A model generated the notes under the pieces. That model searched no databases, was not told the DNA's origin, and was given only the letters and a program-made list of their open reading frames with translations. Shown piece after piece: positions 11,401-22,701 of a stretch of 22,701 nucleotides of DNA. Source of the stretch: a virus; IMG/VR virus record IMGVR_UViG_3300042559_000902, positions 1 through 22,701 of that record; one strand, written 5' to 3'. Position numbers and translations under genes: made by a program. Positions within the stretch are counted from its first letter, which is position 1. The number at the start of each line of letters is the position of its first letter.

Positions 11401-13382
11401 CTATCGGCCAACCCTTCGGCATCTCCGGCACCTCCGGCTACCTTCCGAAGTTCACGAGCCAGCAGACGCTTGGCAACAGTATTGTCTACGACAATGGCAC
11501 AAGTGTGGGCATAAACACATCTTCACCTGCCGGTGTCTTTACCGCAAAAGCTGCGTCTAGCTCAACGCATTTTGTAAACTTCCAAAATACTTCTGGAACT
11601 ACTGTCGCTTCTTTCTACAGCAGTTCAGCGGGACATGGACAGTTTTATGTCAACGACAATACTGGTTCTGGTAAATTCTCTGTAGTTGCACATGACGCTG
11701 CTTATTTTAATCTTCCAGCTTTTGTTAATAACAAGCTGGAAGTTGCGTGTCCAACAGTTGGCACAAAAGGACTTATTGTTAAGGCGTTCTTGGGGCAGAC
11801 GGCGAATCTGACGGAGTGGCAAAACAGCACCGGGACGGCGCTGAGTATTGTTGATGCTTCTGGTAGAGTTGGCGTAGGCTATAGCGGAAGTTTGGATGCT
11901 GTTGCCGGATATTCTTATTCTTTAAGAACTGGTGGCAACATCTTATTGCCAAACACAGGACAAATTGGCTTTTTGAATTCTACTGCGGCTGGTGCTTATG
12001 CTACCATTCAATACAACGCCAGCGACAAACTTATTCTTAGCAATTTTAATGCTGCTGGGTTAGGCATAAGTGTCGATGGCGGTGTTGAAAGATTTCTTTT
12101 AACAAACACTACGGCAACTTTTAAGACCCTCTTTACTGTTGGCGTTGAAGGCGTTAGTTCGTCCAATGTCAATTTCTATGTGAAAGCTGCATCGGGCCAG
12201 ACAGCAAATATACAGGAATGGAGAAACAACGCTGGTACCACGCTGTCTGCCATCAATAGTGCGGGCAGCTTTACTAATAACGGCGGATACAGTCAGTCAG
12301 AAGAATTTGGAAACGGCGCTACTGTAAGTAATAGTTATGCGACAGCAATAGGATATGCGGCTGTTGCTGGTCAGTTATCTACTGCGGTTGGGGCTAACGC
12401 CATAACCAGCGGAGTTACATCGACAGCACTAGGCGCAGACGCTAATGCTGATGGAGGGTCAACTGCTGTTGGAAGGTCAGCCGCAGCTTCTGGTGGTTCC
12501 GCAGTAGCCATTGGAGTAAACTCTTCGGCGGTAGGAAATAACTCAATAGCAATTGGCAGGCTTGCCGCTTCAAACGGCGGCATAGCTATTGGGTACAACT
12601 TTACGGGCGGAGGGGTTGGTTACACTAATTTTAATGCTTCAACTAATGGACTAGCAACAACTGGAGCCATAGCCGTATACGCTGGCGATGGTGCTACCAA
12701 CGGTAATTTTAGTCGCCAGTACTCTATCCTTGGCGCGTGGGCTACTGCAACATACGCATCACGCCTTGGTCGTGTTCAGTTGCGTGTCAACGACTACACA
12801 ACAGATCGTGAAGCGATTCGCTACGAGTCGGACGGTGCAAACGCCCTGACCAGCATCGGTGGCAGCGCAATCATCGCCAGCACCACGCTTGCGGTTCAGT
12901 CAGCCGCTTTGGCTAATAAGGGTCTTGTCGTCAGGGGGGCTTCTGGACAAACGGCTAATCTTCAAGAGTGGCAGAATAACGGCGGCACCGCCCTAGCCTA
13001 CATGGATGCCAACGGCAACTTCTTCGCCGTCAGCAAGAGCTTCTTGATTGATCACCCCACCCCCGCCAAGGCCGCAGAAGGCAAGAAGCTTCGTTATGCC
13101 TCATTGGAAGGTCCAGAGAATGGCGTCTACTTTAGAGGCAGGCTGGAGGGAGAGAGCGAGATTGTCCTGCCCGACTATTGGAAAGACCTGGTCGATCCAG
13201 AGAGCATCACGGTTAACTTGACCCCGCGCAAGCGACCCCAACCCAACCTGTTTATTGTTGACGCCAACGCAGAGAAGGTGACTGTCGGAGGCGAAGCCGA
13301 CATTTGCTGTGATTTCATCGTGTACGGCACACGCAAGGACATTGCTAAGCTGGAGGTGGAGATCGATGGGAACAGCTTATAA
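8439..13382 (+). CDS. Giant tail fibre protein with YadA-like repeats
   Basis: 1647 aa; GGAG (8427-8430) precedes the ATG by 8 nt. Order of parts: IILQPG beta repeat (about 29-56); module A (165-277); a DGTNGQVLTTNGSGSLSW linker (about 283-304); a G-T-x-x-Y-I-x-K-F-T to G-I-G-T-T-S-P unit (about 310-345, second copy about 994-1030). A concanavalin/SPRY-like stretch lies at about 835-990 (WYIRGDGILEIYESG, ITYDGSNVQYWKDG). Five copies of the KGLVVRG...QTANLTEWQN repeat begin at 566, 780, 1109, 1246 and 1493. YadA-head-like beta-roll repeats occupy about 1299-1390, and the C-terminal tip (1533-1647) carries FLIDHP and LEGPENGVYFRGR. No S74 auto-chaperone motif is seen. It is probably a long trimeric fibre that touches the host. 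Large parts are visibly more AT-rich than the head genes. Confidence 0.8.
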   Translation: MATRVIAAQDKTTSGAGDDVQIKAGNANTSGAGGNIILQPGSQVTTGGDGFVQIKGTGANTTLKLTESAYSRSFTFGMDYSGASLSADGGLSGITLFNKMFLSTSGLLRAAYYSYVGLGNSNSQHYDNWGFIYLRNDGVINWWGDVGLTYGSVGQIRVSNASTGGGSFAYTSSTPTALSTNPTNDLVLTGSAFQRLSASSAVSLTGIAPPSTGSHVDGRLIWLYNVGSFNITLKHSQTSTAANQFVNEGGGDIVLGPNRVVQAIYDSTTTKWRVNGETYPYVFPTTDGTNGQVLTTNGSGSLSWATVSAGATASGTTNYIAKFTGASTLGNSLLYDDGSNVGIGTTSPLGRLDVVGANTYEPIRAITNSASNLESGANATVGLSVNNSNTTAGNGIAISFATATTNSNLYGVGAVGFNSLTHTTLGVPQGNFQVITRDAGGGLTPKLTINTSGNIGFGTTSPDKRLTIAANGPSPGITIYKSPDGTLNSAQLVAALGTGSSNTNAGTTGGNEYGILQLNHSGTVRCQFYANAGGAAGSNFVLDGVSFGTTATSAGQVYIIPANAASKALVVRGAGSQSANLTEWQNDSGTVLASVDNLGRHIKSYNSASGLSTFSVGKTVLGAVHFANPAGTNTSTRNEAAITFRGDVATEAQAGIYVTNDNSTGTHMAFATTDSYATGPQLGLTIANTGAVSFPRASTVSTPAVCSIGSNSNDGGVLKLYSAGFGLRITSLNGDIISGDVNSVNITPGAAGNTTGLNVVANMGANGTVAGFTNNGNVGSKVVVIKGKAAQTGNLTEWQDSTGTVVAAVSPTGAFTGSSFTPYGTFNSTTTIFGNNYWTPNLSGVSNPSSGTFTKTTATSAWDSHFYSTEGYTKNVYCAARASQTNGSIMLALNSDPTTDASYVSLDYAWYIRGDGILEIYESGTAISSYGSYTTSTVLSITYDGSNVQYWKDGVIQRTVARSTGSPLYLDSSFSTQNASLNNVQFGPIGQPFGISGTSGYLPKFTSQQTLGNSIVYDNGTSVGINTSSPAGVFTAKAASSSTHFVNFQNTSGTTVASFYSSSAGHGQFYVNDNTGSGKFSVVAHDAAYFNLPAFVNNKLEVACPTVGTKGLIVKAFLGQTANLTEWQNSTGTALSIVDASGRVGVGYSGSLDAVAGYSYSLRTGGNILLPNTGQIGFLNSTAAGAYATIQYNASDKLILSNFNAAGLGISVDGGVERFLLTNTTATFKTLFTVGVEGVSSSNVNFYVKAASGQTANIQEWRNNAGTTLSAINSAGSFTNNGGYSQSEEFGNGATVSNSYATAIGYAAVAGQLSTAVGANAITSGVTSTALGADANADGGSTAVGRSAAASGGSAVAIGVNSSAVGNNSIAIGRLAASNGGIAIGYNFTGGGVGYTNFNASTNGLATTGAIAVYAGDGATNGNFSRQYSILGAWATATYASRLGRVQLRVNDYTTDREAIRYESDGANALTSIGGSAIIASTTLAVQSAALANKGLVVRGASGQTANLQEWQNNGGTALAYMDANGNFFAVSKSFLIDHPTPAKAAEGKKLRYASLEGPENGVYFRGRLEGESEIVLPDYWKDLVDPESITVNLTPRKRPQPNLFIVDANAEKVTVGGEADICCDFIVYGTRKDIAKLEVEIDGNSL
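8523..8606 (+). repeat. IILQPG beta repeat (short copy)
   Basis: Encodes SGAGGNIILQPGSQVTTGGDG. The 19-nt DNA core at 8543-8561 is identical to 15787-15805 and differs by one base from 19573-19591, both in the second giant fibre. Confidence 0.8.
8931..9269 (+). repeat. Fibre module A, copy 2 of 5
   Basis: Encodes GGSFAY, QRLSASSAVSLTGIAPP, DGRLIWLYNVGSFNITLKHS, DIVLGPNRVVQ and STTTKWRVNGE. It is the closest relative of copy 3 in the other giant fibre, with which it also shares the downstream linker. Confidence 0.88.
10134..13022 (+). repeat. Five interspersed NLTEWQN repeats
   Basis: Units of about 36 codons at 10134-10241, 10776-10883, 11763-11870, 12174-12272 and 12915-13022. Each reads (K)GLVVRG-x(4)-Q-T-A-N-L-T-E-W-Q-N-x-x-G-T-x-L-x-x-V-D-x-x-G-x-F with variation. 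The units are separated by unrelated sequence, so they act like standard joints between different inserts. Two more copies lie in the second giant fibre. Confidence 0.88.
12333..12612 (+). repeat. YadA-head-like beta-roll repeats
   Basis: Encodes about seven short units of the type A-x-A-I-G-x-x-A-x-A-x-G (ATAIGYAAVAG, TAVGANAITSG, TALGADANADG, TAVGRSAAASG, VAIGVNSSAVG, IAIGRLAASNG, IAIGYN). This is the pattern of trimeric autotransporter head repeats, which fold as a left-handed trimeric beta-roll. Confidence 0.85.
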
Positions 13383-14064
13383 TCCCTCGATAACAAACTC
13401 TGGGCTGATTCTGTGCGTTGATGTAGGCAATCCCCGTTCTTACCCTGGGTCGGGCACCACCATCAACGACATCAGCGGGCAGGGCAACAATGGCACGCTC
13501 ACCAACAGTCCATCTTACAACGCTGGAAACGGCGGCTATCTGACTTTTACGAGTGCGTCCTCGACTTATGTTTCCATACCGTATTCGGCCTCGCTGGATA
13601 CCCCGACCGGATGCACGCACGAAATCTGGTTTTATCCGACTGGGGTCGGGGAGTTTTTCAGTCGTGGCACCTCGGATTCCGGGGCAACGCCAGACAACCC
13701 AAGGCTTTATGTTAGCGCAACCGGAAGCGTTTATTTTGATTGGTCATCTCCCGCCGCAGATCGCTACGGTGATATTGCCGGGGCGGCGACTATGAACGCT
13801 TGGAATCAGGTCGTTCTTCAGACCCTCCCCAGCACAACCATGAAGCTTTATACCAACGGTGTTTACAAAGGCGCCAGCTCCATCGGCGGCAACATGCCAG
13901 CCACTATTCCCAACACCGCCAACCCCATCATCCTTGGTGGTGCCACCTGGATACCTCGGTATTTTTCAGGACGAATCGCCATCGTGCGTATGTATAACCG
14001 TGCCTTAAGTGCCGATGAAATATTGCAAAATTACAACGCTGTGCGTGGGAGGTTTGGACTCTAA
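13366..14064 (+). CDS. LamG / concanavalin-like adhesin, paralog 1
   Basis: 232 aa. The start at 13366 overlaps the end of the giant fibre gene by 17 nt and follows GGAGGTGGAG (13352-13361); an ATG at 13309 lacks such a site. The protein has the LamG_3-type layout: LILCVDVGNPRSYPGSGTT, then DISGQGNNGTLTN, a Y-L-T-F-T strand, HEIWFYPT, WNQVVLQ, LYTNGVYKG and FSGRIAIVRMYNRALSADEI, ending RGRFGL. These folds are jelly-roll beta-sandwiches that often bind sugars, so a receptor-binding role at the fibre tip is likely but not shown. It is the first of three tandem paralogs. The codons for the terminal G-R-F (GGGAGGT, 14047-14053) double as the Shine-Dalgarno of the next gene. Confidence 0.78.
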   Translation: MGTAYNPSITNSGLILCVDVGNPRSYPGSGTTINDISGQGNNGTLTNSPSYNAGNGGYLTFTSASSTYVSIPYSASLDTPTGCTHEIWFYPTGVGEFFSRGTSDSGATPDNPRLYVSATGSVYFDWSSPAADRYGDIAGAATMNAWNQVVLQTLPSTTMKLYTNGVYKGASSIGGNMPATIPNTANPIILGGATWIPRYFSGRIAIVRMYNRALSADEILQNYNAVRGRFGL

Positions 14065-14753
14065 TGGGACTTAGCCACTCGCCATCGACAGTAACCAACG
14101 GCCTGCTTCTCGCCGTAGACGCAGCCAACCCGCGTAGCTACCCAGGCTCTGGCACGACCTGGAATGATCTGAGTGGTAACGGCCACAACGGCACGCTCAC
14201 AAATGGCCCGACTTTTGCCGCCGGGAACAGCGGTCATATCGTTCATACGGGGGCTTCTAATCACCATACTGCGATAGCGAATACCACAGCCTTACGGCTG
14301 ACGACATCGGTAACCCTTCAAGCGATGATTTATCCTACCTCTTACCCAAACGGAGGGGGAGGGGGCGGTTTTCTAATTGCCATGCCTGGTGCTTATTATC
14401 TTGAATTAAAAAATTCTGGGGTGCTACGAACTTATTTTTACGGTTTGAGCAACGCAGGATATCACGATGGCACTAATACTGTACCGTTAAATCAATGGTC
14501 TCATGTTTCAGTTGTCCGCGACCAATCTGCCAACACCATCGTGACCTACATCAATGGAGTGGTAGATCGCACCGTCAGCAGTATTACTGGCTCTATGACT
14601 ACCGCGGTGAATACCCTGCAAATTGGTGCCTTCAGCGGTGGTGGTTATAGCTTTAATGGCCGAATTGCCAACGCTCATGTTTACAATCGAGCCTTAAGTG
14701 CCACAGAAATTTTGCAGAATTTTACCGCTATGCGTGGGAGGTTCGGCCTATGA
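14064..14753 (+). CDS. LamG / concanavalin-like adhesin, paralog 2
   Basis: 229 aa, beginning in the stop codon of paralog 1 (TAATG). The same landmarks appear in order: LLLAVDAANPRSYPGSGTTW, NDLSGNGHNGTLTNGPTF, a long strand-rich middle, WSHVSVVRD, VTYINGVVDRTV, FNGRIANAHVYNRALSATEI, and the end RGRFGL. N-terminal and C-terminal blocks are almost the same as in paralog 1 while the middle (about residues 60-130) has diverged and includes a run of glycines (NGGGGGGFL). That is what selection on a binding face would leave. GGGAGGT (14736-14742) in its last codons precedes the next ATG by 7 nt, and the genes overlap as ATGA. Confidence 0.78.
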   Translation: MGLSHSPSTVTNGLLLAVDAANPRSYPGSGTTWNDLSGNGHNGTLTNGPTFAAGNSGHIVHTGASNHHTAIANTTALRLTTSVTLQAMIYPTSYPNGGGGGGFLIAMPGAYYLELKNSGVLRTYFYGLSNAGYHDGTNTVPLNQWSHVSVVRDQSANTIVTYINGVVDRTVSSITGSMTTAVNTLQIGAFSGGGYSFNGRIANAHVYNRALSATEILQNFTAMRGRFGL

Positions 14754-15394
14754 GCGTTTACGCAGGACCAAACATCCCCACCGATGGTCTCGTCATGCTC
14801 TGGGACGTTGCTGATCGCAATTCCTATCCAGGGACCGGCACTATTTTGTATGACCTAAGCGGAAGAGGAAATAACGGCACCCTTGTAAATACGGTGGCGT
14901 TTGACAGTACTACTGCCAACGGCATCCTTGAGACCAACGGGGTTGATAGTCAAATTACGGGTGGTCCCAACCTTCAGACTGTAAATCACACCATCATCAC
15001 GGGTTCCAGAAGAAAACCAGGGTCTGCCTACAACGGCAGGGTGGTGAGTTCCAATGGTGGCAACTGGCTCTTGGGACATCATGGTGGGTCTGGAAACAAA
15101 TACTACGCCGAAGGCTGGGTGGTGAATGGGTCGGCAGACGGGACTGTTTGGGCGATATATGCAGGTATAGGCAATTATAGTTCTGATATATGGACATTAT
15201 ATAGCAACGGCGTTTCTATTGGCAGCAATAACGGCGGCGTTTACGGACCTTCCTCCTTCTGTGTCGGCGCCTGGAACTCGTCCAGCGAAAGAAGTCAAGC
15301 TCAATTGAGCTTTCTGATGGCCTATAGCCGGGTATTGTCAGAAGAGGAAGTTATCAGAATTTATGTGGCTATGCGCGGTCGTTTCGGAATATAG
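14750..15394 (+). CDS. LamG / concanavalin-like adhesin, paralog 3
   Basis: 214 aa with a four-base ATGA overlap to paralog 2. It keeps the family frame (LVMLWDVADRNSYPGTGT, YDLSGRGNNGTLVN, a late AYSRVLSEEEVIRIY helix and the end RGRFGI) but is the most diverged of the three tandem copies. Its middle carries HHGGSGNKYYAEGWVVNG in place of the strands seen in paralogs 1 and 2. The terminal codons (ggt cgt ttc) no longer make a Shine-Dalgarno; the following giant fibre has its own AGGAG beginning in the TAG stop. Function is probably the same beta-sandwich adhesin, perhaps with another ligand. Confidence 0.74.
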   Translation: MSVYAGPNIPTDGLVMLWDVADRNSYPGTGTILYDLSGRGNNGTLVNTVAFDSTTANGILETNGVDSQITGGPNLQTVNHTIITGSRRKPGSAYNGRVVSSNGGNWLLGHHGGSGNKYYAEGWVVNGSADGTVWAIYAGIGNYSSDIWTLYSNGVSIGSNNGGVYGPSSFCVGAWNSSSERSQAQLSFLMAYSRVLSEEEVIRIYVAMRGRFGI

Positions 15395-18400: not shown

Positions 18401-20746
18401 GTGTTCATTCAAGGTGGGACCGGCTTCGCCGGAGCCTACGGCACTAACTTCGGTAATGTTGTTCTTCAGGCTAATGGTGGGAATGTTGGCGTTGCCGTCA
18501 CCAGCCCACAATCGACGCTTGATGTCCGTGGCATGACCATTATCACCAATAATAGCGGTAGTAACTACAATGAAAATTTAAGACTTCCCGAATCTTCTAG
18601 TGGGTATGCGACTATTCATATGGGTGGTTCGGTAGCCACGACTGGCACCGGAGCAAATCAATGGTCCATCCTTAAGACGTCGGCTGGCCTCTCCCACCGT
18701 TTTGAAATTCGGCACAATACTTCTCAGTATTTTGCAATTACTACGGCTGGTGCTGTTGGTATAAACGAGACTTCTCCTGGGGCGCAACTTCAAGTAAATA
18801 CTGGTGCGGCTGCCACCAAGGGCCTGATTATAAAAGGCGCAGCCTCGCAATCTGCAAACTTGACAGAATGGGTTGCAAGCGATGGCGTTGTTACTGGTCA
18901 ATTTTCCCCAGACAGCGTTCTAACTGTCGGTCGCCCAGAATACGGAACTATTTATGTCGGCAGTTACTATCCAGGTTTTATTATCGATCATTTTTCACGA
19001 AGTGTGCCTTCGACAGTTGGCAATTATGTTGAACTTTTCAGGACGGCTCGTGCTGGTGGTCTGCCAATTACTTTAAGGGTTAGTTTTGGTCGCGCAGGTT
19101 ATCGAACGGTTCAAAAAGTATACAGGCTCAACAATAGCCTTTATGATGCTGATAAAGTTATTATTCCAGAATATTCGACCACCGGTACTGAATACCAGTC
19201 TGGCGCACCAGATGATGATTTTGAACTTGAAGTTGCTACTTATGATACCTACAATCAAAGTTTTAGGCTAAGAAGAACTGTTTCAAGTGGTGTTGCTGTC
19301 ACAGCCGACATAGGACTTTTTGCCTATAAATCCTACATGAGTTCTTCGGGCGGCATAACCAAAATTTCTGGAACGGGAACTTCTTCGATTTCTTTGACGA
19401 ATTGGCACGCCACACCTTTTAGGACTCAAACCATAACCGGCCCTGTGCCAGCAGCAAACAATGGCGCAGGCACCAATCTTTCAATTGCTGCAAGCAGTGG
19501 CGCCGGGACTGGGGCTGGTGGCTCCTTGTTCTTGTATGGCGGTAGCGGTGCTACAACCGGAGCTGGAGGCTCCATCATTTTGCAGCCTGGCCTACAGGCA
19601 ACTTCTGGAGGCAACGGCATCGTCGTCGTTCGTCAGCCTAGCGGCACGGCGGGCACAGACGAAATCCAGCTTTCACACGATGGCGGCAAGGGCAGTATTA
19701 TCAACAAAGATGGGACATTGCAACTGGGTGGGGCAAATATTGCCATTCGGAATAGTGCCAATAATGCAAATACCACATTAACAGCAACAGCTATCTACGC
19801 CACCAGCATTAACAGCAATAATTCTGTTAACTCCGATGGCGTAACAAACGACAGCTATTCTTGGGCGATTGATGGTTCTAGCTTAAACTGGAACAGTAGC
19901 TTCAACATACGGGTTAGTTGGTCCCATATTAAAGGATATGGCGGGGCCGGGATGGCCTATGTTGGCGATGGTACTAATAATACCTACGCTACGCTGCATA
20001 TTACTGACGGCGGTTCAAATGGTGGTTCGCTTGCCTATCGAGCGACTAATGTTTCAATCACAGCCAACACCAACAATCTGACTCCTTCCACTTTTTCTGC
20101 AATGCAAAGGTGGAGCAGTACTGCAAATTACAATGTGACTGGATTTTCTCCTGGTGGGTCAACTAGTTTTGGTGGCGGCACACCCACATGGATTCATGCT
20201 AGCGGTCGAGTAATCTGGGTTCATAATGTTGGTTCTTACAACATCACTCTGAAACACGAAGACGCCAACAGTACTGCGGCAAACAGATTCACAAATGAAA
20301 CCGGAACTGATTTGATTTTGCCGCCGAACAGCATGGTCATGTTGACTTATGACAGCACAACGACAAGGTGGCGGGTACACACGCTAAGTAATGTTGTAAC
20401 CAATTCTTCATCCACGACCAATATAAGTGCAGCCACCAACAACTTGGCTTTGTCTGGTTCTAATTTCCAAAGGATGAATTGTACTGTCGCTTGCAACTTG
20501 ACCGGAATTGCCCCGCCCTCTGGTGGCACGCACTACGATGGCCGAACCATGCGTCTTTACAACACAGGTACGGCCAACCTCACCCTCAAGCACAACAGCA
20601 CCAGTTCAGACATCGCCAACCGGTTCTGCTGTGTGCAAGCTGTCGATATTATTCTCGCCCCCCGCGACTACGCCGAACTCATTTGGGACGGCACGGACGG
20701 TGGGCTTGTGGCTGGTCAGAATAACCCATGTTGGAGGGTCGCATAA
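15404..20746 (+). CDS. Second giant tail fibre protein
   Basis: 1780 aa; AGGAG (15393-15397) is 6 nt before the ATG. Order of parts: a beta N-terminus with FTGKGNVPITLKLLDDSNG and LFSINN; IILQPG/VVVRQP repeat (122-165); module A (283-394); DGTSGQVLSTNGSGTLSW linker; a GTTNYIVKFTG to VGIGTASP unit (about 429-470). Further SP-x-x-x-L-x-V units follow (for example VGIGTASPSTKLHV). NLTEW-type repeats lie at 844-879 and 1138-1173, and an AT-rich unknown globular stretch at about 1181-1310. A second IILQPG repeat (1384-1427) and two more module A copies (1540-1659 and 1670-1780) form the C-terminus, ending NNPCWRVA. No S74 chaperone and no IDHP tip are seen, so the C-terminal module A pair is probably the distal or joining end. 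It shares at least four module types with the 8439 fibre, which implies common ancestry. Confidence 0.8.
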   Translation: MADSDKNIVITPNRSQTAQPTIVFTGKGNVPITLKLLDDSNGTMSFEGSSGQLFSINNNLASGTIFSVNDISGVPMIDVDASGLVRLAPLGGTTYSNTLYGVPRTVAGSGNSVTIRAADGLTSGAGGSIILQPGQQATTGGNGVVVVRQPGGTAGTDELQIYHDGTHTYFANKDTSGNIYFDVPTGSNPGLFIRRSDFTTQSLKLTAGDIDNLATVQSVSADMQLRSGSGDVWIRPGTASNYVTNWFALRLRNLNGQNGAILRIPGNNPAGILQLYDNADSSGGSIAYPAATPTTLAANTNDLVLNSSAIQRLSASAAYNLTGIAPPATASHADGRVIWLHNVGSFNITLKHSQSSVAGNQFINENGGDIVLGPNRIVQCTYDGTSTKWRVHGEMYPYNLPTADGTSGQVLSTNGSGTLSWTTASGGLGGSGTTNYIVKFTGSTTAGNSQIFDNGTNVGIGTASPNSKVTIGADFASITGMTIDTGNGTDSGLVMRKAASKTAMGFLPWDSDAYITAGVYYDGGAWVHHNANNNNQLFVMSPGTGISWYASNNGTGSWNVANGITLWNDAGTWRQPVDAVGTGGSTVNALGTALIRVSPSSQNTYAALELRTLNAGTYGGAGLMAVNDTNYDSNLVFYTNPAGSTTRAERMRIHKNGDIGIAIGGKIAQGLGFAGNASATSYNYIDLYNGTTGELGLRTVGSFPLICYTANTERLRIDSSGNVGIGTASPSTKLHVVGAVRSSGYSGGGDGTYLALTGDLPGYSANTYPTLRSDGSIYFAASDRYSAYLYSVDNSFNICNTSTQWRVRLHPNGTSYFTGGSVAFGDTAATGGGQVYVAPTSAGTKGLVVRAAATPTANILEVQNSSGTNLVYVDPTGDLVVGSLSAGTFPTGALAPLHVTRSTTAVSTAIAAWPTAEPETQTHARVVAYMSDGGNGGTATVGTGTTNIVQFGEYYTGRVVLMPLGAGSGTPADQNSGAGRDIMLLGGKSDNSAGKTGGRVFIQGGTGFAGAYGTNFGNVVLQANGGNVGVAVTSPQSTLDVRGMTIITNNSGSNYNENLRLPESSSGYATIHMGGSVATTGTGANQWSILKTSAGLSHRFEIRHNTSQYFAITTAGAVGINETSPGAQLQVNTGAAATKGLIIKGAASQSANLTEWVASDGVVTGQFSPDSVLTVGRPEYGTIYVGSYYPGFIIDHFSRSVPSTVGNYVELFRTARAGGLPITLRVSFGRAGYRTVQKVYRLNNSLYDADKVIIPEYSTTGTEYQSGAPDDDFELEVATYDTYNQSFRLRRTVSSGVAVTADIGLFAYKSYMSSSGGITKISGTGTSSISLTNWHATPFRTQTITGPVPAANNGAGTNLSIAASSGAGTGAGGSLFLYGGSGATTGAGGSIILQPGLQATSGGNGIVVVRQPSGTAGTDEIQLSHDGGKGSIINKDGTLQLGGANIAIRNSANNANTTLTATAIYATSINSNNSVNSDGVTNDSYSWAIDGSSLNWNSSFNIRVSWSHIKGYGGAGMAYVGDGTNNTYATLHITDGGSNGGSLAYRATNVSITANTNNLTPSTFSAMQRWSSTANYNVTGFSPGGSTSFGGGTPTWIHASGRVIWVHNVGSYNITLKHEDANSTAANRFTNETGTDLILPPNSMVMLTYDSTTTRWRVHTLSNVVTNSSSTTNISAATNNLALSGSNFQRMNCTVACNLTGIAPPSGGTHYDGRTMRLYNTGTANLTLKHNSTSSDIANRFCCVQAVDIILAPRDYAELIWDGTDGGLVAGQNNPCWRVA
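15767..15898 (+). repeat. IILQPG-VVVRQP repeat, copy 1 (132 nt)
   Basis: Encodes TSGAGGSIILQPG, GNGVVVVRQPGG and TAGTDELQIYHDG. Exactly 132 nt long, like the copy at 19553-19684 in the same gene. Confidence 0.9.
16250..16585 (+). repeat. Fibre module A, copy 3 of 5
   Basis: Encodes GGSIAYPAATPTTL, IQRLSASAAYNLTGIAPP, DGRVIWLHNVGSFNITLKHS and STKWRVHGE. Protein similarity to copy 2 is very high, and the linker after it is also shared. Confidence 0.88.
17933..18922 (+). repeat. Two NLTEWQN-type repeats of the second giant fibre
   Basis: Units at 17933-18040 (KGLVVRAAATPTANILEVQN) and 18815-18922 (KGLIIKGAASQSANLTEW). They match the five units of the 8439 fibre; the second unit loses the Q-N after the W. 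Confidence 0.8.
19553..19684 (+). repeat. IILQPG-VVVRQP repeat, copy 2 (132 nt)
   Basis: Encodes TTGAGGSIILQPG, GNGIVVVRQPSG and TAGTDEIQLSHDG. In frame and of equal length with copy 1, about 3.8 kb upstream. Confidence 0.9.
20021..20380 (+). repeat. Fibre module A, copy 4 of 5
   Basis: Encodes GGSLAYRATNVSITAN, YNVTGFSPGG, ASGRVIWVHNVGSYNITLKH and STTTRWRVH. It has an insert (STSFGGGTPTWIH) before the GRVIW strand. Confidence 0.85.
20411..20743 (+). repeat. Fibre module A, copy 5 of 5
   Basis: Encodes NNLALSGSNFQRM, CNLTGIAPPSGGTHYDGR, LYNTGTANLTLKH and the protein end CWRVA. It follows copy 4 directly and has four unusual cysteines, two adjacent (RFCCVQ). Confidence 0.82.
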
Positions 20747-21012
20747 TGGCTGGTATTTCTCGTCGATGTAAGAGAAGGCCGAGGGGTGGTGTCGGTGGTT
20801 GTCCTGGCCAAGGGTCGGGAACCCCACCGACGGTCTATCCTGGTGGAACCTCAAGTGGCGTGATCAAGAGAAGTACGACAAATCCGCCAGCCCCGCCCCC
20901 CAGGACTCCACCCAAACCTGTTGTCAAGTCTGCCACGACTGTGGTGATTCCCTTCACTTCACCCATTGTGCCTACAACTTCAGGCATAACGGTGACGGTG
21001 ACGAAAGTTTAA
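20746..21012 (+). CDS. Small proline-rich protein of unknown function
   Basis: 88 aa from the ATG at 20746, which overlaps the previous stop as TAATG and follows GGAGG (20733-20737) by 8 nt; the in-frame ATG at 20728 would lie before that site. The N-terminus is strongly basic (RRCKRRPRGG) with two cysteines, the middle Pro-rich (NPPAPPPRTPPKP), and the C-terminus a Val/Thr-rich beta stretch (TTVVIPFTSPIVPTTSGITVTVTKV). I do not recognise the family. Sitting between a giant fibre and a Thr-rich LamG adhesin, it may be a connector or chaperone for one of them. No membrane segment or signal peptide is evident. Confidence 0.55.
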   Translation: MAGISRRCKRRPRGGVGGCPGQGSGTPPTVYPGGTSSGVIKRSTTNPPAPPPRTPPKPVVKSATTVVIPFTSPIVPTTSGITVTVTKV

Positions 21013-21021
21013 GAGGTCACC

Positions 21022-22044
21022 ATGTCCGGTACGCCGTTTCCAACGACCACAACGACTACGTCGACTACGACTGGTGGTTTTACTACTACGACTACTACTT
21101 CGACTACGACTACCACCACAACGCCGACCACAACCACCACCACGACCCTAACCCCGACCACGACCACATCGACGACGGCAGCCCCGGTCAATGCGTCCCT
21201 AACACTAGCTACAGCCGACCCCGTCTACAACGATGAGGCCATGGTCTTCACCCTGAGTGGGGTGACCATTTCCCCCGGCGACATCATCACGGTCACCATC
21301 GCTGACAACACCATACAGTCTGCAATCGACGGCACCTATGTGACGGGGCAGACTTTCCAGAATACCGATGTGTTCAACTGCGTGGGGGCGACTCTTTTTC
21401 TGGATCAGTACGCCACCAACTTTGGCCCCAACAGCGGAACCTGGAATGACCTGAGCTACAGCGGGAATGACGCCACTTTCGTCAGCAACCCCACCTATTC
21501 CGACTCCAACGACGGCTATTTCATCTTTGACGGCACCGCATCCTATGCCTACGGCAGCGCCGGTCTGACCAACAACGCTGACTTCAGCGTGAACTTCTGG
21601 ATGTATTACATCAGCAATAATGCCACCGAGCAGGGTATTCTGTCGACTTGGGATACCAGCTGGAATGGATTTGCCATTGGGACGAGTGGGACGGGGGCGA
21701 ACATCCGGTCTTGGACGAACAACGGAGCCGGTGGCGGGTTGAACTGGGCCACAACGGCCAGCATCCGCAACGGCTGGCATATGTTCACTTTGACCTATAA
21801 GTTTTCGACCAAGACCCAGACGGTCTACATCGACGGGGTCAAGAAGGGGACAGAATCCTTCGGGTCGGCCATTACCCACTCCACGCTCCAGATCGCCAGG
21901 GGTGGGGCCACGGGATCGAGCCAGTTAGCCTCTTACCCGTTGACGAACGCTTACATAACCCATCTAGGGTTTTACAACAGCGTGTTCACAGACAACCAAG
22001 TCGCTTATATGTTCAGCAGAATAAAAAGCCGATTTGGCTTGTAG
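21022..22044 (+). CDS. LamG adhesin with threonine-rich N-terminal stalk
   Basis: 340 aa; AGAGG (21012-21016) lies shortly before the ATG at 21022. Residues about 7-55 are almost only Thr with a few Ser, Pro and Gly. Residues about 56-110 form a small beta domain (LTLATADPVYNDEAMVFTLSG, then GDIITVTIADN) of unknown type. The rest is a LamG-like beta-sandwich (GTWNDLSYSGNDATFVSNPTY, YFIFDGT, FSVNFWMYY, WHMFTLTYK, QTVYIDGVKKGTESF) ending KSRFGL. The end matches the R-G-R-F-G-L of the three tandem paralogs, so this is a fourth family member set on a stalk. The stalk may be an extended spacer that carries the lectin-like domain away from the virion. Receptor binding is inferred. Confidence 0.76.
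   Translation: MSGTPFPTTTTTTSTTTGGFTTTTTTSTTTTTTTPTTTTTTTLTPTTTTSTTAAPVNASLTLATADPVYNDEAMVFTLSGVTISPGDIITVTIADNTIQSAIDGTYVTGQTFQNTDVFNCVGATLFLDQYATNFGPNSGTWNDLSYSGNDATFVSNPTYSDSNDGYFIFDGTASYAYGSAGLTNNADFSVNFWMYYISNNATEQGILSTWDTSWNGFAIGTSGTGANIRSWTNNGAGGGLNWATTASIRNGWHMFTLTYKFSTKTQTVYIDGVKKGTESFGSAITHSTLQIARGGATGSSQLASYPLTNAYITHLGFYNSVFTDNQVAYMFSRIKSRFGL
21040..21186 (+). repeat. ACN codon tract (threonine-rich stalk)
   Basis: 49 codons, mostly ACT/ACC/ACA/ACG, encoding runs of 3-7 Thr broken by Ser, Pro, Gly-Gly-Phe and Leu. Codon choice is mixed, so this is not a pure trinucleotide microsatellite, but close relatives such as ACGACT recur. Confidence 0.9.
22026..22040 (+). terminator. Weak hairpin at the end of the LamG gene
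   Basis: AAGCC (22026-22030), loop GATTT, GGCTT (22036-22040), followed by GTAGTTT. The 5-bp stem lies in the last coding codons. It mirrors the arrangement at 2456-2493, where a hairpin is followed by the TTATAWGGTG element, but is much weaker. Confidence 0.25.
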
Positions 22045-22091: not shown

Positions 22092-22442
22092 ATGGCACAG
22101 TGGATTGAAGCTACCGAACCCAGCGTTGTCCCCCCGATCGCCGAGAAGGTGTTCGACAAGTGGCGGATTGAGCAGTTCAGCACGGTTGGTGATGGGGTGA
22201 CCTCCCCCGTCCAACTGCATGTGATTTTCGTGAAAAGTCGCGTCTACAACGAGACGGTGACCAATCCGGAAACCAACGAGACCACTTCGGTCGAGAAGGT
22301 TGAAGTCAACTCCAGCATCAAGACCAACCTGTTCGTCCCCAACCTGTACGAACTCGCCGCCGAAGACGCCGATGTCGCCCAGGCTTTCGGTCTGGTCGTG
22401 GCTGCTCTCGACAAGATCGCCAAGGCCAAAGGCGTTATCTGA
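22092..22442 (+). CDS. Small acidic structural or accessory protein, unknown
   Basis: 116 aa; AGGAG (22079-22083) is 8 nt before the ATG. The protein begins MAQWIEATEPSVVPPIAEK, has a beta-strand pair around VQLHVIFVKSRVYNETVTN, a polar loop (NPETNETTSVEKVEVNSS) and a helical C-terminus (LYELAAEDADVAQAF, then VAALDKIAKAKGVI). No membrane segment or catalytic motif is seen. Codon use returns to the C/G-ending style of the head genes, suggesting it is core phage and not part of the fibre cassette. The next gene starts in its stop codon (TGATG). Family not recognised; a tail or neck minor protein is a guess from position. Confidence 0.6.
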   Translation: MAQWIEATEPSVVPPIAEKVFDKWRIEQFSTVGDGVTSPVQLHVIFVKSRVYNETVTNPETNETTSVEKVEVNSSIKTNLFVPNLYELAAEDADVAQAFGLVVAALDKIAKAKGVI

Positions 22443-22701
22443 TGTACAAGGCAACGATCGGCGTTGTCCTTGGGGTATCCAAGACGGGCCAGAGCCTTAC
22501 CGCTCAACTTGTCAGCCCCAGCGGCACGCCGGTCGGGAGCCTGATCTCTGGCGGATTCGTCGAGATTGGCCAGGGCAACTACATGTGGACTTACGACCAG
22601 TTCCCGGCCAGCTTCCGGGGTGGCGTTAAGTTCTTTTCTGGCAACAACTTAATGGCGTTCATGACCATCAACCCAGAGTTGCTGGAATATGTGGATGCCC
22701 C
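22442..22701 (+). CDS. Unknown beta-rich virion-associated protein (3' partial)
   Basis: The ATG at 22442 overlaps the previous stop as TGATG, and the frame stays open to the window edge (86 full codons). The visible part (MYKATIGVVLG, then LTAQLVSPSGTPVGSLISGGF, VEIGQGNYMWTYDQFP, FRGGVKFFSGNNLMAF) has the look of a small immunoglobulin-like or beta-sandwich domain: a S-P-S-G-T-P-V-G turn followed by a G-N-Y-M-W strand. Such domains are frequent in tail and baseplate decoration proteins. I do not recognise the family, and the C-terminal part is missing. Confidence 0.6.
   Translation, partial: MYKATIGVVLGVSKTGQSLTAQLVSPSGTPVGSLISGGFVEIGQGNYMWTYDQFPASFRGGVKFFSGNNLMAFMTINPELLEYVDA

Follow-up and report, generated by a model that had tools for sequence, protein, structure and literature searches.

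A threonine-rich stalk in a phage lectin-fold protein and a GalNAc-transferase-like enzyme family linked to poly-threonine genes point to possible mucin-type glycosylation of virus proteins by some phages

The threonine-rich tract of a 340-amino-acid (aa) phage protein is best read as a mucin-like stalk that bears the lectin-fold domain of a virion protein and receives O-linked sugars from a phage enzyme resembling polypeptide GalNAc-transferases (ppGalNAc-Ts); we put the probability of this best single reading at roughly 0.45. The stalk, probably disordered, would keep a LamG head at a distance from its anchor; in the infected cell, a transferase of the phage, working like a ppGalNAc-T, would attach O-linked sugars to the Thr side chains of the stalk. 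The protein is encoded in a virus record of 22.7 kb, itself a fragment (the window, i.e., the whole stretch of DNA analyzed here). More surprising than the stalk reading is the genetic link that emerged around the enzyme: members of its family lie repeatedly next to poly-Thr genes, in phages as well as in bacteria. Taken together, the results suggest a possible mucin-type sugar coat on proteins of some phages, put there by the phages themselves.

The Thr-LamG protein and its relatives

An earlier note on this DNA had described about 49 nearly all-Thr codons preceding a lectin-like domain. The tract is real, although its purity was overstated: 36 of its 49 residues are Thr, and the longest uninterrupted Thr run is 7. 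The densest 46-residue stretch of the protein holds 36 Thr, against a maximum of 24 in 20,000 shuffles of the protein, and the other 12 window genes tested reach at most 14 Thr per 46 residues. The stalk has two of the traits of a mucin-like region, a long Thr/Ser/Pro-rich stretch beyond chance and length variation between relatives (see below); dense O-glycosylation would be a third. The lectin-like domain is likewise borne out, with Laminin_G_3 (PF13385) scoring 46.5 bits against a curated cutoff of 27.6, but about 115 residues without a family match separate it from the tract (Table 1). An AF2 model of the whole protein, built from four near-identical sequences, gave a mean pLDDT of 32 and no usable fold.

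Table 1. Features of the window around the stalk gene, and bacterial cassettes of a poly-Thr protein and a transferase
Feature	Position	Strand	Basis or remark
94-aa Pro/Thr-rich gene, possible partner of the stalk gene	20728..21012	+	ORF upstream; also 94 aa in L003
Thr-stalk/LamG protein gene, 340 aa, ATG start	21022..22044	+	Open reading frame; 3 viral relatives
Thr-rich stalk, residues 7-55 (codons 7-55), 36/49 Thr	21040..21186	+	Composition; leader length differs in 4 relatives
Residues 56-170, conserved	21187..21531	+	Conserved among four relatives; no Pfam match here
Laminin_G_3 (concanavalin A-like lectin fold) domain, residues 171-328	21532..22005	+	Pfam E 5.4e-12; record-wide family search
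C-terminal end ...KSRFGL	22006..22041	+	Resembles ...RGRFGL/I of three other LamG-like window proteins, by eye
116-aa gene downstream, same module	22092..22442	+	ORF; positional counterpart of 117 aa in L003
Start of 212-aa module gene, cut by window end	22442..22701	+	Homologous to gene just downstream of L120 poly-Thr protein
Bacterial cassettes, poly-Thr protein then DXH-family transferase	L443:3287-6852; L451:4675-6828; L483:4807-7269; L475:4690-7257		HprK-like or PqqD-like regions

The 94-aa ORF upstream begins within the end of a 1,780-aa fiber-like gene. Gene context, together with cyanophage relatives that are annotated in some records as virion structural proteins, suggests a place for the Thr-LamG protein on the virion. 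Elsewhere in the window (positions 13309-15394), each of three tandem genes encodes a LamG-like region (that of the third scores below the Pfam cutoff). Their products terminate in RGRFGL/I, which resembles KSRFGL at the end of the Thr-LamG protein and may serve in anchoring or as a signal for assembly. No tRNAs were found in the window.

Relatives of the Thr-LamG protein occur on three viral contigs (L003 on G001, 149 kb; L004 on G002, 64.7 kb; and L005 on G003, 69.4 kb), with 84 to 86% identity after the tract. A profile search for a wider family retrieved the same three loci and nothing further, and 72 pattern stretches from bacterial genomes contained no relative. In the window protein and these relatives, the last 288 residues, from a conserved A/P-A-P-V on, are of equal length, and the leader ahead of them measures 52, 45, 40, and 42 aa, respectively, always in frame. 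The length of the tract had been proposed to change in frame, and in-frame change is indeed what is seen, in a comparison of four closely related phages rather than of isolates of one phage; the invariant length that the note had named as part of its counterevidence is thus not observed. The proposed mechanisms, slippage or recombination, fared unequally. All four Thr codons are in use in each of the four tracts, and only the window tract has its codons in a more repetitive order than shuffles do (P = 0.027, uncorrected; 0.79, 0.15, and 0.44 in the others); the mixed codons make polymerase slippage on a pure repeat an unlikely cause of the length change. Recombination between short in-frame repeats is possible, since in the L003 leader four TTSGP units replace part of the Thr run. 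A diversity-generating retroelement was also considered and is not favored, RVT_1 being found in 0 of the 4 records, all possibly partial.

A transferase family that recurs beside poly-Thr genes

All three of the longer relatives carry a candidate partner enzyme. Matches to the glycosyltransferase family PF00535 number three in G001 and two each in G002 and G003, and one of these enzymes, of DXH type (motif DSH), is common to the three, at 82 to 97% identity to the G002 copy. Its gene follows 28 to 30 kb downstream, on the strand that also carries the stalk gene; it encodes GT2 as the only domain found and is absent from the window itself, a 22.7-kb fragment. As the four stalk relatives are close kin, the shared enzyme counts as one evolutionary event. 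A second GT2, of DXD type, is also common to G001, G002, and G003 (L146, L147, and L148; 69 to 91% identical) and could extend a glycan.

In a 42-row alignment of the DXH transferases, D90, H92, GFGxEE, and H213-R-F are invariant. Pfam Glyco_transf_7C gave weak matches in 6 of the 42 (best E = 0.03). A whole-profile search of PDB sequences recovered 9 matches at E values up to 10 with no ppGalNAc-T among them, the best being the bacterial N-acetylglucosaminyltransferase 6h1j (E = 8.9e-7; residues 2-117), and a profile of the C-terminal half recovered 3, including GALNT7 (E = 0.066) and GALNT10 (E = 0.68), matches too weak by themselves. Their alignment runs through the Gly-rich motif and sets H213 opposite the His of "SRVGH." The ppGalNAc-Ts (family GT27) have a DXH metal motif and a third metal His after a Gly-rich motif. 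An AF2 model of the transferase (mean pLDDT, 83; mostly >90 up to residue 270; 77 around H213) has a predicted fold closest to these enzymes. All 50 of the Foldseek matches listed were ppGalNAc-Ts (best, ppGalNAc-T2; E = 4.7e-14), and ppGalNAc-T2 also headed the VIA-align results (Z = 24.0; rmsd, 3.3; 264 aligned), in which the first 29 entries were all ppGalNAc-Ts (Z = 24.0 to 19.4), followed by GlfT2 (18.6) and K4 chondroitin polymerase (18.2). These 29 are many entries of few enzymes (T1, T2, T4, T7, T10, T12, fly PGANT9, and Toxoplasma T3), and the ranking is that of the AF2 model of the DXH transferase alone, not of ordinary GT2s. As there is no significant whole-length match to GT27, we describe the transferase as one that would work like a ppGalNAc-T and do not class it as a member.

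Viral stretches contained 353 relatives of the DXH transferase, of which the best 80 were used to examine up to 3 kb on each side for poly-Thr ORFs (≥12 Thr in 20 residues). Such an ORF was found in 24 of these 80 loci, whereas a different phage GT2 family, taken as control, had it in 1 of 79; as a yardstick, 3 of 111 reversed-pattern stretches (those of 120 that are absent from the poly-Thr scan) had one. With single-linkage clusters at 80% identity, the counts were 8 of 34 for the enzyme and 1 of 63 for the control GT2 (Fisher P = 8e-4). Upon greedy clustering, the poly-Thr ORF lay upstream on the same strand in 8 of 35 clusters and downstream in none, ending within 280 bp of the enzyme ORF in 7 of the 8 positive clusters. 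The reverse view started from a viral-contig scan for ACN x12, which gave at least 120 stretches: the enzyme occurred in 6 of 120 poly-Thr stretches among the matches listed versus 0 of 111 reversed-pattern ones (P = 0.018), an unclustered count in which one of the six is weak (E = 6e-9). One large branch of the family adjoins a different gene, and an ACN x11 tract occurs anywhere in 6 of 21 records from loci without a close poly-Thr ORF. Phage-collection records yielded no DXH transferase at an E value of 1e-5.

The family is also widespread in bacterial genome contigs (at least 100 relatives, of which 80, in 73 clusters, were used). A poly-Thr ORF lies within 6 kb of the enzyme in 24 of these 80 loci, a count for enzyme loci alone; with each locus taken once per class, it is upstream on the same strand in 15, downstream on the same strand in 3, and on the other strand in 4 and 2. 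One of the 24 (L445) has the tract inside the enzyme ORF itself; as this tract contains an ambiguous base, no argument is based on it. In a tree of 115 enzymes, 23 rows have an upstream same-strand poly-Thr gene, and 17 changes are needed to account for them, versus an average of 21 with shuffled labels; at least 11 of the 17 are forced by well-supported branches. Hence, the label is somewhat clustered, yet it is not the trait of one lineage.

Individual loci illustrate this arrangement. In a sister phage (L120/L177), the gene order is poly-Thr protein, 218-aa, 183-aa, 152-aa, enzyme, 194-aa, 214-aa, 321-aa, and 378-aa genes, of which six match the L003 module at 30 to 57% identity, and the enzyme lies inside the virion module together with its poly-Thr protein. 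The end of that poly-Thr protein matches the L003 212-aa protein (35%), and in blastp searches the 218-aa gene matches the L003 212-aa gene (39.5%) and the window piece 22442..22701 (36%). The stalk gene of the window occupies about the same slot as the L120 poly-Thr gene, one gene before the 212-aa homolog. On a Gemmata sp. IIL30 contig (L489:3986-8397), probably a prophage, as genes read without a family search as phage tail genes lie upstream, the poly-Thr gene directly precedes the transferase.

Among the bacterial cassettes (Table 1), Hyphomicrobium and Bradyrhizobium MAGs have an approximately 90-aa, exported-looking poly-Thr protein ahead of an enzyme that includes an HprK-like domain as a fusion. 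In Hyphomicrobium, the enzyme is also fused to DUF6065, and its small poly-Thr partner has a Tat signal above the cutoff; the Bradyrhizobium one has no match to the Tat signal. A PqqD-like region is found in the poly-Thr protein of L483 and in the enzyme ORF of L475. The HprK-like and PqqD-like scores are below the NCBI cutoffs (84.7 and 77.4 bits versus 200; 24.2 versus 35), and no named system matched these cassettes above the cutoff. By their sequence features, they look like peptide-glycosylation cassettes. A prokaryotic counterpart of mucin-type O-glycosylation may exist, with a GalNAc-T-shaped family in phages and many bacterial phyla and poly-Thr proteins as its dedicated substrates (phage virion stalks and small exported bacterial peptides); we hold this view tentatively, at somewhat short of an even chance.

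Modified stalk or plain linker

Several observations count against a glycosylated stalk: in the lineage of the window, ~30 kb separate the enzyme from the stalk gene, sister phages carry the enzyme without the Thr-LamG protein, and 27 of the 35 viral enzyme clusters have no poly-Thr ORF in the examined stretch (up to 3 kb on each side). None of the nine other enzyme-bearing records has the Thr-LamG protein. In six of them the neighboring 212-aa gene is present without it, and in three (G004 to G006) the 212-aa gene is also absent; the latter may be fragments and are uninformative. Furthermore, G001 encodes a second, very large poly-Thr protein (1,345 aa; L169:4974-9011, minus strand), whose globular and Cys-containing parts are set apart by poly-Thr linkers, and G004 encodes a similar one (at least 1,185 aa; L521:1-3555, plus strand); these could be the real substrate of the transferase. 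The missing Thr-LamG protein in the nine records, six of them with the 212-aa gene, and these large proteins lower our confidence in the glycosylated stalk. Two Pfam-supported glycosyltransferase ORFs lie 6 to 9 kb from the gene for the 1,345-aa protein in G001. In favor of the glycosylated stalk, however, the Thr-LamG tract is the sole ACN x8 tract on the records of G002 and G003.

The tract could instead be an unmodified flexible Thr/Pro-type linker, only spacing the LamG head from its anchor, with the transferase, if it modifies poly-Thr, serving other proteins. PT linkers occur in secreted enzymes, and poly-Thr occurs commonly in proteins of environmental phages: in 94 of the 124 ACN12 ORFs examined among the matches listed, the Thr frame exceeded the other five in length, and 91 poly-Thr ORFs of at least 150 aa, trimmed to the tract surroundings, gave Pfam matches to PA14, fn3, collagen, F5/F8 type C, BNR, and base-plate families (one to five members per family). 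Such a linker would also fit the 114 of 120 poly-Thr stretches (among the matches listed) that are without this transferase family within the stretches searched, the domain-separating tracts of the 1,345-aa protein, and the sister records with the enzyme but without the Thr-LamG protein. It offers no explanation for the presence, in all three relatives, of a transferase from a family repeatedly found next to poly-Thr genes of phages and bacteria, and we consider it quite possible while betting against it. That same recurrence lends indirect support to the suggestion of the earlier note that the stalk is a glycosylation target. In PMC6821194, poly-threonine tracts are described as possibly linked to genome instability and Ser/Thr-rich low-complexity regions are noted in polysaccharide-binding proteins, many from two organisms; poly-Thr glycosylation in phages was not apparent in the titles and abstract beginnings of the open-license papers listed.

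DNA and host surfaces are known targets of phage glycosyltransferases (PMC12619734), and many members of the present family have other neighbors. Conceivably, then, the transferase acts on phage DNA or a host surface glycan and is close to poly-Thr genes through shared late virion modules. We regard this as unlikely, given that the link is also found in bacterial loci with HprK-like or PqqD-like enzyme fusions and in loci where a Tat-type signal or PqqD-like region is part of the poly-Thr protein, and that the predicted fold ranks with peptide-modifying enzymes. Least probable is a near-neutral low-complexity tract without specific function, lengthened and shortened by recombination: its length and interruptions do differ in every relative, but 4 of 4 retain a Thr-rich leader with all four Thr codons in use, as expected under selection on the residue.

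We retain the glycosylated stalk as the preferred reading; in it, the place of the protein on the virion, the use of peptide Thr by the enzyme, the sugar that it would add, and the stalk of the window as its substrate are inferred.

Comparison with known systems

The usual teaching has mucin-type O-glycosylation as a trait of eukaryotes. If both an enzyme of this kind and its poly-Thr substrates are phage-encoded, virion surfaces could be sugar-shielded or retargeted, and many poly-Thr proteins of environmental viruses would gain a testable role. A further use of the transferases might be the production of Thr-linked glycopeptides in bacterial cells.

The C-terminal part of the Thr-LamG protein resembles cyanophage LamG-like proteins (e.g., that of S-RIM44; 27.6% identity over query residues 165 to 340), the relatives annotated as virion structural proteins in some records, whose matches start at query residue 122 or later and leave the Thr stalk unmatched. 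Glycans on phage virion proteins, as proposed here, have a precedent in mycobacteriophages (Freeman et al. 2023, as cited in PMC12619734), where they are at the C termini of capsid and tail-tube subunits. In contrast, the target proposed here is a Thr stalk of some length at the N terminus, with an enzyme similar to GalNAc-transferases. With the HPr-rel-A type peptide-modification systems (NCBIfam TIGR04352 and TIGR04353), some bacterial relatives of the enzyme share a fusion to an HprK-like domain or a neighboring PqqD-like poly-Thr protein; unlike in those systems, the scores are below the cutoff, and the enzyme of the window's relatives has a GT2 domain alone.

The closest comparison is with the eukaryotic ppGalNAc-Ts. 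The setting here is phage and bacterial, there is no significant whole-length sequence match, and the alignment of the phage enzyme ends at residue 284, with no C-terminal lectin domain matched. On the other side, their catalytic fold is the closest to that predicted for the phage enzyme (Z = 24.0), the DXH motif is shared, a later His may lie at the matching place (by alignments at E = 0.066 and 0.68), and, as with ppGalNAc-Ts and mucins, the recurrent genetic partner of the phage enzyme is a Thr-rich polypeptide.
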